Below, piece by piece: positions 1 through 64,000 of a stretch of DNA of 64,000 bases. Positions within the stretch are counted from its first letter, which is position 1. Every line of letters begins with the position of its first letter. The notes beneath the pieces are model-generated. The model saw only the letters and a list, made by a program, of their open reading frames with translations, had not been told where the DNA came from and did not search any database. Made by a program: the position numbers and the translations under genes. This DNA comes from a virus. The stretch spans positions 1 to 64,000 of IMG/VR virus record IMGVR_UViG_3300036857_000386. One strand, 5' to 3'.

Positions 1-570
1 GGCCGCCGGGTAGGCCCCTAGTTCGCATTGCGTGGCTTTTCCCTAGGTGTCCGGAGCGTTTCCAGACAGCCCAACGACAACCGGGGCGAGATGAGGCTAG
101 GCGAGAGCGCGGGCCGCAAGACGAGGTGTCACGTTGGACAGGGTTTCGGGTATGACGCGCAGGGTATCGCGCTAAGATCGGACTGGACACGGGCTGAAAG
201 GCTCTCCGCCACACGTGCGGAGTAACTCAATCGACGAGACAGCTAAGTCGCGTGGGCTCCCCTTCAGTGGGAAGCTTGGCGGTCGAAGATGGGAGCGCAA
301 ATGCTCAATGCGTGTGAAGACGGGCAGGTATCCTGCCGGGTAGCACTACTTCGAACCGGAAGACCGCCAAGCGTAGTGGCCATGACGTGTGGAATGTCAC
401 AACGGTTGAGAGGGGATGCGGCGTAACCGGACAACGACTCCGACGACACTGGCGATCCCTAATGAAGCAACACATCCACTCTCGTTATCGGCGTTATGCA
501 GAGCGAGAGCGCTTGTGTTGCACGAACGCAGTTACACATCGCTGCGCTTGTGCAACACAAGCAAATGGAC
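1..570 (+). ncRNA. Putative large structured noncoding RNA (5' end cut by window)
   Basis: No convincing protein is encoded here, but the stretch is full of perfect stems. GCTTGGCGGTC (274-284) pairs with GACCGCCAAGC (362-372) over 11 bp. Inside it sit GAGC/GCTC (293-296/303-306) and GGCAGG/CCTGCC (323-328/332-337). Upstream are CTCCGC/GCGGAG (204-209/217-222) and CCTAG/CTAGG (17-21/43-47). Downstream is a 13-bp stem (511-523/550-562) enclosing CGCAG/CTGCG. Nested, mostly perfect helices over half a kilobase without a coding frame are typical of ornate phage RNAs such as GOLLD or ROOL, but I recognise no family-specific core. The strand is inferred from the downstream genes. Boundaries are uncertain. 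Confidence 0.5.
511..562 (+). repeat. 13-bp perfect inverted repeat with nested stem
   Basis: GCTTGTGTTGCAC (511-523) and GTGCAACACAAGC (550-562) are exact reverse complements. The 26-nt loop itself folds through CGCAG (527-531) and CTGCG (542-546). There is no T-tract afterwards, so it is not a simple Rho-independent terminator. It ends 15 nt before the start codon of the small basic ORF at 578. It could close the upstream RNA or control translation of that ORF. Confidence 0.8.
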
Positions 571-577
571 ATCTACC

Positions 578-793
578 ATGGCCAAGGTCAATCGCTGTCG
601 TCGTGCCGACGCTGCCGCCAATGCGGCGCGTTGCGTGCACGTTGTCGCGGCGTCGCCGCGTCGCGGCGCGTCGGCTGCAGTCGCTCGCGCCAACGCCAAT
701 CATGGTTTCGGTTACCAGTCGGGCGTTAAGCACGCGTTGTCGCGTCAGCGCACGACGTGGGCGTCGCAATACGCCAAATCTCACGTAAAGTAG
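578..793 (+). CDS. Small basic Arg/Ala-rich protein, unknown
   Basis: This 71-aa frame starts MAKVNRCRRADAAANAARC and ends in Lys. It uses the G/C-rich third positions seen in the other phage genes and has a natural-looking composition (Arg, Ala, Ser, some Cys). No Shine-Dalgarno sequence is obvious. A 13-bp hairpin lies directly upstream. The high positive charge would suit nucleic-acid binding, but no domain is recognised. It could still be part of the structured RNA region rather than a gene. Confidence 0.45.
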   Translation: MAKVNRCRRADAAANAARCVHVVAASPRRGASAAVARANANHGFGYQSGVKHALSRQRTTWASQYAKSHVK

Positions 794-795
794 GC

Positions 796-1154
796 TAGTG
801 TCAGCTACCTCTGGTATGCAGGACACCGCTTTCGGACAGCGCAGCGCGTTTTCGGCATGCGCCAGAATCGTATTTCGTCCCTATATACTACGTATATAGG
901 GACGGCCTTAGTGCCGGCAATTTTTGGTGTCCTTATTGTCTGTAGTGTCAGGAGTCTTTTTATAAGCTTCATAGAGTCGATGCGTTTTTGCGAGAAAAAA
1001 TTCGCGCGCGAAAATGCCGACTCTAATTGGCTCTCTGCTGCAGAAATTACGCTGACACTAGGACACTAAACGCAGCAAGCGCGTTTAGCGTTGATTTCAT
1101 TGCCGTTTCAGCGACGTGCTGACACTAAACCGCATTAATGGTGTCTGACACTAA
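796..1154. repeat. Iteron-like TGACACTA repeats
   Basis: TGACACTA occurs at 1053-1060, 1120-1127 and 1145-1152 on the + strand, and as TAGTGTCA at 796-803 and 943-950. GGACACTA at 1061-1068 directly abuts the first + copy. The three + copies are followed by G, A or A, and both 1120 and 1145 extend to TGACACTAA. Such reiterated sites usually bind an initiator or repressor. No gene in the window can be named as the binder. Confidence 0.65.
876..904. repeat. 29-bp hyphenated palindrome
   Basis: CGTCCCTATATAC (876-888) is followed by the spacer TAC and by GTATATAGGGACG (892-904), a perfect 13-bp inverted repeat. It is AT-rich at its centre and GC-rich at its edges. As DNA it could be a dimeric-protein operator or extrude a cruciform. 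As RNA it would be a stable hairpin with a 3-nt loop. No T-tract follows. Confidence 0.85.
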
Positions 1155-1186
1155 GCGTAAATTCAGCCACTAAATGGACCAATCTG

Positions 1187-17453: not shown

Positions 17454-17629
17454 GTTCAGCTCCCGGAATTGGTCCACGAGCACAGCCGGGGCGGCAACGG
17501 GTGCGCGGGTTGTTCCCGCAACAAGGTCAGGTTCGGGTCCGGGAGCGGTCGCGCGATCGACCAACATTTCCCCGCGAAGCCTGGCAAGCCGTCATCAATC
17601 ATCCATCTAGAAGCGGGGATCCCCAATGA
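17450..17629 (+). CDS. Uncertain small gene with conflicting frame signals
   Basis: A 59-aa frame (MSSAPGIGPRAQPGRQ...) has ATGA overlaps with both the polymerase and the HTH gene, which argues that it is translated. Yet the G/C-rich third-position signal here lies in a different frame, the polymerase frame read past its TGA (…NGCAGCSRNKVRFGSGSGR…DQHFPAKPG). That frame has no ATG, only a TTG at 17469, and runs into the HTH gene. A frameshift or a decayed polymerase extension are both possible. Confidence 0.35.
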   Translation: MSSAPGIGPRAQPGRQRVRGLFPQQGQVRVRERSRDRPTFPREAWQAVINHPSRSGDPQ

Positions 17630-60078: not shown

Positions 60079-60543
60079 ATGGCAGCACAGACACGCTCGG
60101 AGGTGTTCGCGATCAACTTCGCCGCACTGGCCCGCGAGATCGCCATGGATATCCTGCCGATCGGGGATATTTTGGCGCTCCACCAGATCTCCGAATCCGA
60201 CTGGGAAAAGATCCAGAAGAACAAGCTCTTCCAGGACCAGGTGGCGCAGCTCACCCGCGACTGGATGAGCGCCGCCAACACCCGCGAACGCGTAAAAATC
60301 AAGGCGGCGACGGGACTGGAATCGCAGCTGGAGACCTACATCGCCGAGATCGGCGACAACTCCGTCCCGCTCATCCAGCGCGTCGAGGCCGGCAAGTTCC
60401 TGGCCAGGTTGGGCGAACTCGACGGCGGCCGCGCCGAGGGTGCGCCAGGCGAGAAGTTCTCGATCTCGATTACGATCGGCAACGTCGAAAAGCACATCGA
60501 CGTCAAGCCGATGAAGACCATCGAGGCGATCCCCGAGCCATGA
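60079..60543 (+). CDS. Small terminase subunit (probable)
   Basis: 154 aa from MAAQTRSEVFAINFAALARE. The central segment SDWEKIQKNKLFQDQVAQLTRDW looks HTH-like, and it ends in a conserved-looking ISITIGNVEKHIDVKP. It directly precedes and overlaps the large terminase (ATGA), which is the usual place for the DNA-recognising small subunit. Confidence 0.7.
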   Translation: MAAQTRSEVFAINFAALAREIAMDILPIGDILALHQISESDWEKIQKNKLFQDQVAQLTRDWMSAANTRERVKIKAATGLESQLETYIAEIGDNSVPLIQRVEAGKFLARLGELDGGRAEGAPGEKFSISITIGNVEKHIDVKPMKTIEAIPEP

Positions 60544-61931
60544 GCATCCATTTTACCGCGCCGCCGACAATCGCGCGCTTCATGCTCTCGGAAGCCTTCA
60601 TCCGCATCATCGTCGGGCCGATCGGATCGGGGAAAACCACCGGCTGTTTGATGGAGCTGCTTAGGCGCGCCATCGAGCAGCGGCCCGGCCCGGACGGTTT
60701 GCGCAGGACGCGCTGGGCGATCGTCAGGACGACGCTGTCGCAGCTCAAGATGTCAGTCTTGCTGGACATTTTGAGCTGGTTCCGCGAGATCGCTGTCTAC
60801 AAGGTTACCGAGCAGCTCGTGACATTGAGCTTCAACGACGTGCTCGCCGAGATCTACCTGATCCCGCTGGAAGAAGAAGAGGACCAGAAGCGCCTGCTCT
60901 CCATGCAGCTGACCGGGGTGATGGTCAACGAGGGCATCGAGCTTTCGGTCGATTTGATATCGGCGATCGCCGGCCGCTGCGGAAGATTTCCCAGCGCTGC
61001 GGATGGCGGCCCGAGCTGGTTCGGCATCATCTGCGACACCAACGCGCCGGTCACCGGCAGCGATTGGTGGCGGATGATGGAGCATGACAAGCCTGCCGAC
61101 TGGGACGTGTTCTGGCAGCCGGACGGATTATCGCCAGAGGCCGAGAACGTCGAAAATCTTCCGCCCGGCTACTACCAGCGGCTGGCGCTCAATCCCAACG
61201 CGGACTGGGTCAGGCGCTATGTCAACGCCCAGTACGGCGAGGACCCCTCCGGCGTCGCCGTCTTCAAGGGCTCGTTCCGCTACAATTTCCACGTGGTCGC
61301 CTCGCTCGACCCGGTGCGCGGGCAAGTCGTCCTGGTCGGCCAGGACTTCGGACGCCATCCGTGCTCGCTGATCACCCAGGTCGACCATGCCGGCAGGCTC
61401 TTGATCCTTGAGGAGGTGCACGCCGAGAACGTCGGCCTGGAGCTGCACGTCACCAGATCGCTGAAGCCGCGGCTGTGGAGCGAGCGCTATTTCGGGTTGA
61501 TGATGGCCGCGGTCGGCGATCCCTCCGGCCGGGCCAAGGGCAACTTCCTGGAGGAAGATTCCTTCGACGTCATGCTCAGGCTCGGCGTGCCGTGCTTCCC
61601 GGCGCCGACCAACGACGTCGACGCACGCATCCGCGCCGTGGAGACGCTGCTTTTGCAACAGCGCGACGGCGGCCCCGCCGTACTGGTCGACGGCGGACGC
61701 TGCCCGATGACGGTCAGGGCGCTGAACGGGGCGTATCGCTACGGAAAAACAAGTGCCGGGGAAACACGTCCGCTGCCGGAAAAGAAACACCCATGGTCGG
61801 ATTTCGCGGATGATCTCCAATACGTGGCGCTGACCGTCAACGCCGGGCTGGTGCTGAGGATCGCGCGCAAGATCAAGCCCAAGCCGGCCAGGCGGCCGGC
61901 CTCGAAGGTCAGCGCTGCGGGCTGGACCTAG
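60540..61931 (+). CDS. terL: Large terminase subunit
   Basis: 463 aa. Walker A GPIGSGKTT (26-34), a Walker B region (VMVNEGIEL) with Asn-Glu instead of the usual Asp-Glu, and a C-terminal nuclease domain with LVGQDFGRHP (Asp near 270), a later VGDPSGRAKGNF and a last acidic region around DFADDLQY. It drives DNA packaging through the portal. It ends four bases into the convergent 61928 gene. Confidence 0.9.
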   Translation: MSIHFTAPPTIARFMLSEAFIRIIVGPIGSGKTTGCLMELLRRAIEQRPGPDGLRRTRWAIVRTTLSQLKMSVLLDILSWFREIAVYKVTEQLVTLSFNDVLAEIYLIPLEEEEDQKRLLSMQLTGVMVNEGIELSVDLISAIAGRCGRFPSAADGGPSWFGIICDTNAPVTGSDWWRMMEHDKPADWDVFWQPDGLSPEAENVENLPPGYYQRLALNPNADWVRRYVNAQYGEDPSGVAVFKGSFRYNFHVVASLDPVRGQVVLVGQDFGRHPCSLITQVDHAGRLLILEEVHAENVGLELHVTRSLKPRLWSERYFGLMMAAVGDPSGRAKGNFLEEDSFDVMLRLGVPCFPAPTNDVDARIRAVETLLLQQRDGGPAVLVDGGRCPMTVRALNGAYRYGKTSAGETRPLPEKKHPWSDFADDLQYVALTVNAGLVLRIARKIKPKPARRPASKVSAAGWT

Positions 61932-63374: not shown

Positions 63375-63388
63375 TTCAATTGTGTTAC
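63375..63388 (-). promoter_or_regulatory. Recurrent GTAACACAATTGA motif
   Basis: On the - strand, GTAACACAATTGAA begins inside the stop codon of the HNH-like gene and lies upstream of the RHH gene. It matches motifs at 13534, 15532 and 19571. Confidence 0.4.
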
Positions 63389-63903
63389 GGGTTCCTGAGC
63401 GAATCGAGGTCCATCTCGAAGATGCCGCGTTCGCGCAATCTCTGCAGCCTGTGCTTGAGGCTGTCGCGCCTGACGCCAAGCAGCTCTGCTGCCTCGCGCG
63501 TCGTCAGCAGCTTGCCGTCGTCATAGATGAAGCTCAGCGAGCCCGAATGCGGCAGGGCTCTGGGCCTGCGGTTGTCAGCCTGCTCGCGCATCGTCGCCCA
63601 GCGCCAGTTGCCCGGTCCATAACCCTTGTCGTTGTCCGGTCGGTCCACCGTCAGCCCATACTGCGGAGGATTACCGACGTCCGCGTAGTAGTTCTCGAAC
63701 TCATGCCACCGCTTGTCGACGTGGATGCCGCGTCCGCCGTAGTTGTCATAGCCTGGCGCGTGCTCGTCGTAGCAGCGATCCATCATACCGCTCCAGCGCC
63801 GGTAGGCGAGCTGCCTGTCCAGCTTGACGCGCCTGACATCGGCGTTCGTCCTGGACGATACCTTCCACCTCATTCCGCGTTTTCCAACCATCGGGTTCTC
63901 CAT
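63385..63903 (-). CDS. HNH-like homing endonuclease with HTH end
   Basis: 172 aa. YRRWSGMMDRCYD, YGGRGIHVDKRW, LTVDRPDNDKGYGPGNWRWAT and EQADNRR form a compact HNH-like domain common in phage mobile genes. The C-terminus LLTTREAAELLGVRRDSLKHRL is a DNA-binding HTH. A promoter-like region lies directly upstream. It may be a mobile nuclease at the end of the late block or a domesticated nuclease. Confidence 0.75.
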   Translation of the reverse strand: MENPMVGKRGMRWKVSSRTNADVRRVKLDRQLAYRRWSGMMDRCYDEHAPGYDNYGGRGIHVDKRWHEFENYYADVGNPPQYGLTVDRPDNDKGYGPGNWRWATMREQADNRRPRALPHSGSLSFIYDDGKLLTTREAAELLGVRRDSLKHRLQRLRERGIFEMDLDSLRNP

Positions 63904-63935
63904 TCTCGATGCGTTGTGTTACATCGGTTTTTTGC

Positions 63936-63941
63936 TTTATA
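63936..63941 (-). promoter_or_regulatory. -10-like TATAAA upstream of the HNH-like gene
   Basis: On the - strand TTGGAT is followed 12 bases later by TATAAA (63936-63941), then GTAACACAACGC, then the gene start. The short spacer suits alphaproteobacterial promoters, or the -35 lies further up (TTTTTG). The remaining bases to 64000 are a G-rich run with no gene. Confidence 0.4.
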
Positions 63942-64000
63942 CAATTGGGGTACATCCAAAAAGGGCGAGGGGGGTGGGGGGCGTTGGGCGGGTGGCCGCC

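Follow-up and report, generated by a model that had tools for sequence, protein, structure and literature searches.

Introduction

Few large, ornate RNAs are known from phages, and none has a settled function. The put RNAs of phage HK022 are short (about 65-75 nt), structured RNAs found at the start of the phage early transcript, right after the promoter. GOLLD is a large, ornate, phage-encoded RNA composed of a less conserved region and a conserved core (PMC12286853). It is usually >800 nt and is encoded near tRNA islands, frequently but not universally (PMC12286853). ROOL is approximately 600 nt, occurs in phages and prophages, is dispensable, has a patchy distribution, and has no known protein partner (PMC12286853). 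The function of both GOLLD and ROOL is unsettled (PMC12286853). Two further hallmarks of ROOL are a very abundant discrete transcript and a homo-oligomeric cage.

The DNA analyzed here (the window) comprises bases 1-64000 of the 64120-base virus record IMGVR_UViG_3300036857_000386. A sequence-only reading had pointed to an ornate RNA at its left end that might represent a new phage RNA family, a proposal that is supported by the lack of an Rfam match, the lack of a codon signal, and the presence of covarying stems. The element is best read as part of a large structured phage RNA family that has yet to be named, similar in kind to GOLLD and ROOL but belonging to neither. The features of the locus are listed in Table 1.

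Table 1. Positions of the candidate RNA, its helices and adjoining features (window numbering)
Feature	Position	Strand	Basis or remark
HNH endonuclease gene beside the RNA	63385..63903	-	Precedes the promoter-like site
Promoter-like site GTTACA-N16-TACAAT	63918..63945	+	The region's single sigma-70-like site; expectation 0.4 (scored on L004 7178-7205)
G-rich leader GGGGGGTGGGGGGCGTTGGGCGGGTGGCC, running over the join into window 1-7	63959..64000	+	Conserved whether or not a relative carries the RNA
Main part of the candidate large structured RNA (63952-63993 adjoins it upstream; putative ends)	1..562	+	Same-place ORF-poor elements, covariation
CCCTAGGTGT motif	41..50	+	Conserved across many members
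Hairpin CTCCGC-CACACGT-GCGGAG, then TAACTC	204..222	+	YACAAGW-type loop search
Closing helix, 5' strand CTCAATCG	226..233	+	Pairs in the window, L007, L010, L017 and L038
11-bp helix, 5' strand GCTTGGCGGTC	274..284	+	Exhaustive stem search
GAGC-GCAAAT-GCTC hairpin, conserved GCNAAU loop	293..306	+	Loop-stem counts, covariation
11-bp helix, 3' strand GACCGCCAAGC	362..372	+	Exhaustive stem search
Closing helix, 3' strand CGGTTGAG, then AGGGGATGCGG	403..410	+	Pairs in the window, L007, L010, L017 and L038
Long 3' hairpin, 13-bp outer stem and nested stem	511..562	+	Stem 511-523/550-562; no T-run after
71-aa basic ORF immediately following the RNA	578..793	+	ORF list; no Pfam or PHROG match

Boundaries of the element

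The record sequence closes circularly to 63993 bp. Its last 127 bases (63994-64120) duplicate its first 127, such that window positions 63994-64000 repeat positions 1-7, and contig L004 crosses the record join at 100% identity. Because of the end repeat and this read-through, the start of the RNA element is not at the window edge. The 5' end had been described as cut by the window, but position 1 simply marks where a record that closes into a circle has its linear end. The promoter-like site recurs with its surroundings in >30 relatives, and transcription would start at approximately 63952. The element probably begins near 63950, ~40-50 bases before window position 1, and probably ends at ~562, just ahead of the small ORF. 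The folded RNA would be roughly 500-620 nt between these putative ends.

The conserved CCCTAGGTGT motif is possibly a second promoter -10 element or a structural motif. An CTAGGGTGTAG-type motif after the leader is present twice in some members (L116 5845-5930, L082 5055-5115 and L095 5090-5145), and may be a promoter -10 element. A gene similar to the HNH endonuclease gene lies at the equivalent place in L009, and none is found in L005. After the small ORF, a CCCTATATAC/GTATATAGGG hairpin is found at 876-904, and window positions 780-1170 also contain several GTGTC/TGACAC repeats, which look like binding sites or iterons; GTTACC/GGTAAC and GGATAATATCC are other words repeated there in relatives.

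Coding potential and known RNA families

No plausible reading frame spans the region, in agreement with the sequence-only reading. Codon-type conservation, which would argue against an RNA, was looked for in a comparison of L085 with L075 and was absent: mismatches are distributed 32/22/21 by codon position, and most gaps are one or two bases long. Decay of a protein gene was considered and rejected. At the gathering score, Rfam 15 gave no match in the window or in six relatives, and at E up to 5 only chance-type hits were obtained with the window, L132 and L085. Covariance-model matches to GOLLD and to ROOL were absent in both searches, and the failure to match a known class is in line with the proposal of a new family. 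No tRNA genes were found across the whole 64-kb window, the first 8 kb matched no phage record at the DNA level, and a literature search found no description of this element.

Helices and covariation

In an exhaustive search of positions 1-570 with spans up to 130, the stems with perfect Watson-Crick pairing were 13, 11 and 8 bp long. The two long helices noted previously are both present as described; the 13-bp helix is perfect and has a nested stem, and the 11-bp helix is perfect and encloses two hairpins, GAGC-GCAAAT-GCTC and GGCAGG-TAT-CCTGCC (323-337). The earlier count of at least six perfect helices stands only if shorter stems are included. Dinucleotide shuffles contain a mean of 0.007 stems of at least 11 bp, with two such stems in 0/300 shuffles, and two were found in 2/111 other 570-base stretches of the same genome. 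The folding energy of the whole region is mildly better than that of shuffles (z about -2). When 23 family members were compared with terL coding DNA, they showed no significant advantage in folding energy (p=0.11). Stability by itself is weak evidence and proves little; covariation carries the case for structure.

Pairing was counted in motif-anchored pieces because MAFFT alignments of the window-type cores misplace helices. Of 12 sites with the GCNAAU loop, 8 have a supporting stem of 4 bp or longer, compared to 2.3% of random positions (tail 4e-11), and hairpins with this loop number 8 on the + strand, where 0.3 are expected, and 0 on the reverse strand. The stems of these hairpins are paired in 32/32 cells with nine two-sided changes, a value as high as which was reached in 0/500 shuffles; these pieces, like those of the closing helix, were chosen by motif and joined for counting, and the shuffle figures are not selection-free. 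The closing helix (226-232/404-410) is 97% paired with nine two-sided changes among the window, L007, L010, L017 and L038. Its CTC/GAG is invariant and four more positions covary, one with all four Watson-Crick types. G-U pairs are present inside both the GCNAAU hairpin and the closing helix. Hairpins with a YACAAGW-type loop, followed by GTAAC or TAAC, were found four times (window, L005, L016 and L057), compared to 0.09 expected. The GCNAAU hexaloop (297-302 in the window, and in relatives) is closed by C-G, is conserved, and was matched to no known RNA motif.

Covariation in the 11-bp helix had been proposed as a check on the structure. A counterpart at the same GRTCGAAG anchor in L017 (GGTGATC/GGTCACC versus GGCGGTC/GACCGCC) contains two compensatory changes, which agrees with the proposed pairing in a single homologue. 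The cores of L085 and L075, which are 77% identical, keep 96/96 pairs with 13 compensatory changes and none broken, whereas shuffles have a mean of 4.6 and a maximum of 11 compensatory changes, and 0/200 reach 13. The z value of this core (-2.3) is preferred to the whole-length value (-4.8), which takes in poorly aligned flanks. Alifold on this pair does not separate the two strands, and the whole alignment of L017 and L038 is uninformative (z -0.8). Helices that covary in homologues, combined with the lack of a codon signal, are the mark of a large structured phage non-coding RNA, and both were observed here.

Distribution among relatives

Relatives were gathered via the terminase TerL (60540-61931) and leader patterns. 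With a profile built from the promoter plus the G-rich leader, this site was located in >30 loci, with many strong matches. The leader is followed by an ORF-poor stretch of ~230-650 nt in ~25 distinct contigs, two of which are cut by the contig end, and almost directly by a gene in approximately ten (L012, L015, L021, L053, L059, L063, L064, L080, L096 and L120). The elements of the L085 type and of the window type may be treated as one family on the basis of their common place, promoter and leader, rather than a shared fold. Four cultured Rhizobium phages, with TerL 52% identical, carry the element unannotated and identical among themselves; it contains the CCCTAG motif together with a hairpin of sequence CCGC-GCAAAT-GCGG. 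These phages include RHph_TM27A and TM29, which infect Rhizobium phaseoli and in which the RNA would start near record position 17,600. L046, L051, L135 and L136 were rejected as relatives, being chance coding hits of pattern scans. The last pattern scan found no further relative of L085 and L075, and a TerL search in bacterial genomes gave three distant matches only.

In several of the loci that lack the RNA, the gene following the leader encodes a member of one ~250-aa protein family. Members of this family (L132 16046-16774, L012, L050, L053, L059 and L063) are encoded distal to the RNA or in its place by the promoter. No PHROG match was obtained with the L132, L050 and L012 members, and the family was not detected in the window. 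Mutual exclusion of the RNA and the ~250-aa protein was considered and rejected; both are present in L132, L050, L071, L085 and others.

On the TerL tree the presence of the element is patchy and is not clustered relative to shuffles. Bootstrap trees give 6-8 changes, and starred branches force no fewer than three. This distribution suggests an accessory role, rather than a role in packaging or replication.

Discussion

The interpretation we favor, with slightly more confidence than doubt, is that the element encodes a stand-alone, trans-acting large structured non-coding RNA, whose transcription, ends, trans action and function are predicted from sequence comparison. The promoter at the head of the rightward gene block would drive synthesis of the RNA, which would fold into a multi-branched core, consisting of a hairpin and then the closing helix, inside which lie the 11-bp helix and the hairpin with the GCNAAU loop, with the long 3' hairpin ending the fold. 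The RNA would most likely act in trans, whether by itself, as an oligomer or together with a protein. Much like GOLLD and ROOL, it would probably confer an accessory benefit on the phage inside the infected cell.

The main rival, to which we give an appreciable but clearly smaller probability, holds that the region is a giant 5' leader controlling the small ORF and the genes behind it in cis, for example as a riboswitch, translational switch or put-like antiterminator. In nearly every member the promoter, the RNA and the small ORF follow one another, in RNA-less relatives this leader passes directly into a ~250-aa gene, and the window has no intrinsic terminator between the RNA and the small ORF. 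However, terminator-like hairpins are located 43-73 nt ahead of the small ORF in 6/19 members (0.5 expected), and the small ORFs that fill this place in most relatives differ widely in sequence. To our knowledge, leaders of the riboswitch, translational-switch or put type are far shorter than 500-600 nt. The accessory-type patchiness and the terminator-like hairpins are the reasons that a trans-acting RNA is preferred over a cis-acting leader.

It is unlikely that the conserved stems serve the DNA, as a replication origin, packaging site or regulator sites, with any RNA being incidental. The element does sit between diverging gene blocks, the dispersed GTGTC/TGACAC repeats downstream resemble binding sites, and the L085/L075 pair gives no strand distinction. 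Nonetheless, the GCNAAU-loop hairpins are confined to one strand, the conserved helices include G-U pairs, GC skew has no origin signal at the element, and relatives dispense with the RNA. The element could also be a highly diverged form of a known RNA (GOLLD, ROOL, OLE, HEARO or an intron), as its size, its occurrence in a phage and its ornate fold are similar and an HNH endonuclease gene adjoins the RNA in the window. Such an identity is highly improbable given the Rfam results for the window and its relatives, including two diverged members searched at E up to 5, the lack of tRNAs nearby, and the absence of the HNH gene beside the RNA in L005. In descending order of probability, we therefore place the trans-acting RNA, the cis-acting leader, a DNA-level function and a diverged known family.

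A more specific version of the trans-acting reading is offered only tentatively, as we doubt it somewhat more than we believe it. The RNA could be a new class with a fold unrelated to those of GOLLD, ROOL and OLE, acting at the RNA level, perhaps in oligomeric form, when Alphaproteobacteria are infected, and repeatedly gained or lost within one group of phages that share the promoter and leader. Since this promoter and leader are common to natural relatives whether or not they carry the RNA, the role of such RNAs is directly testable. The family also occurs in cultured Rhizobium phages with cultured hosts, which opens the role of the RNA to experiment.

Like the put RNAs of HK022, the present RNA is structured and located directly after its promoter-like site, but it is about 500-600 nt and is followed by terminator-like hairpins in several members. 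The element resembles GOLLD in being large, ornate and phage-encoded, whereas it is shorter, has no Rfam match, and is found in a window without tRNA. ROOL is often near tRNA islands, unlike the present RNA, which has neither an Rfam match nor a tRNA in the window. Nevertheless, like ROOL, the element is phage-borne, of comparable length at ~500-620 nt, dispensable in relatives, and patchy in distribution.
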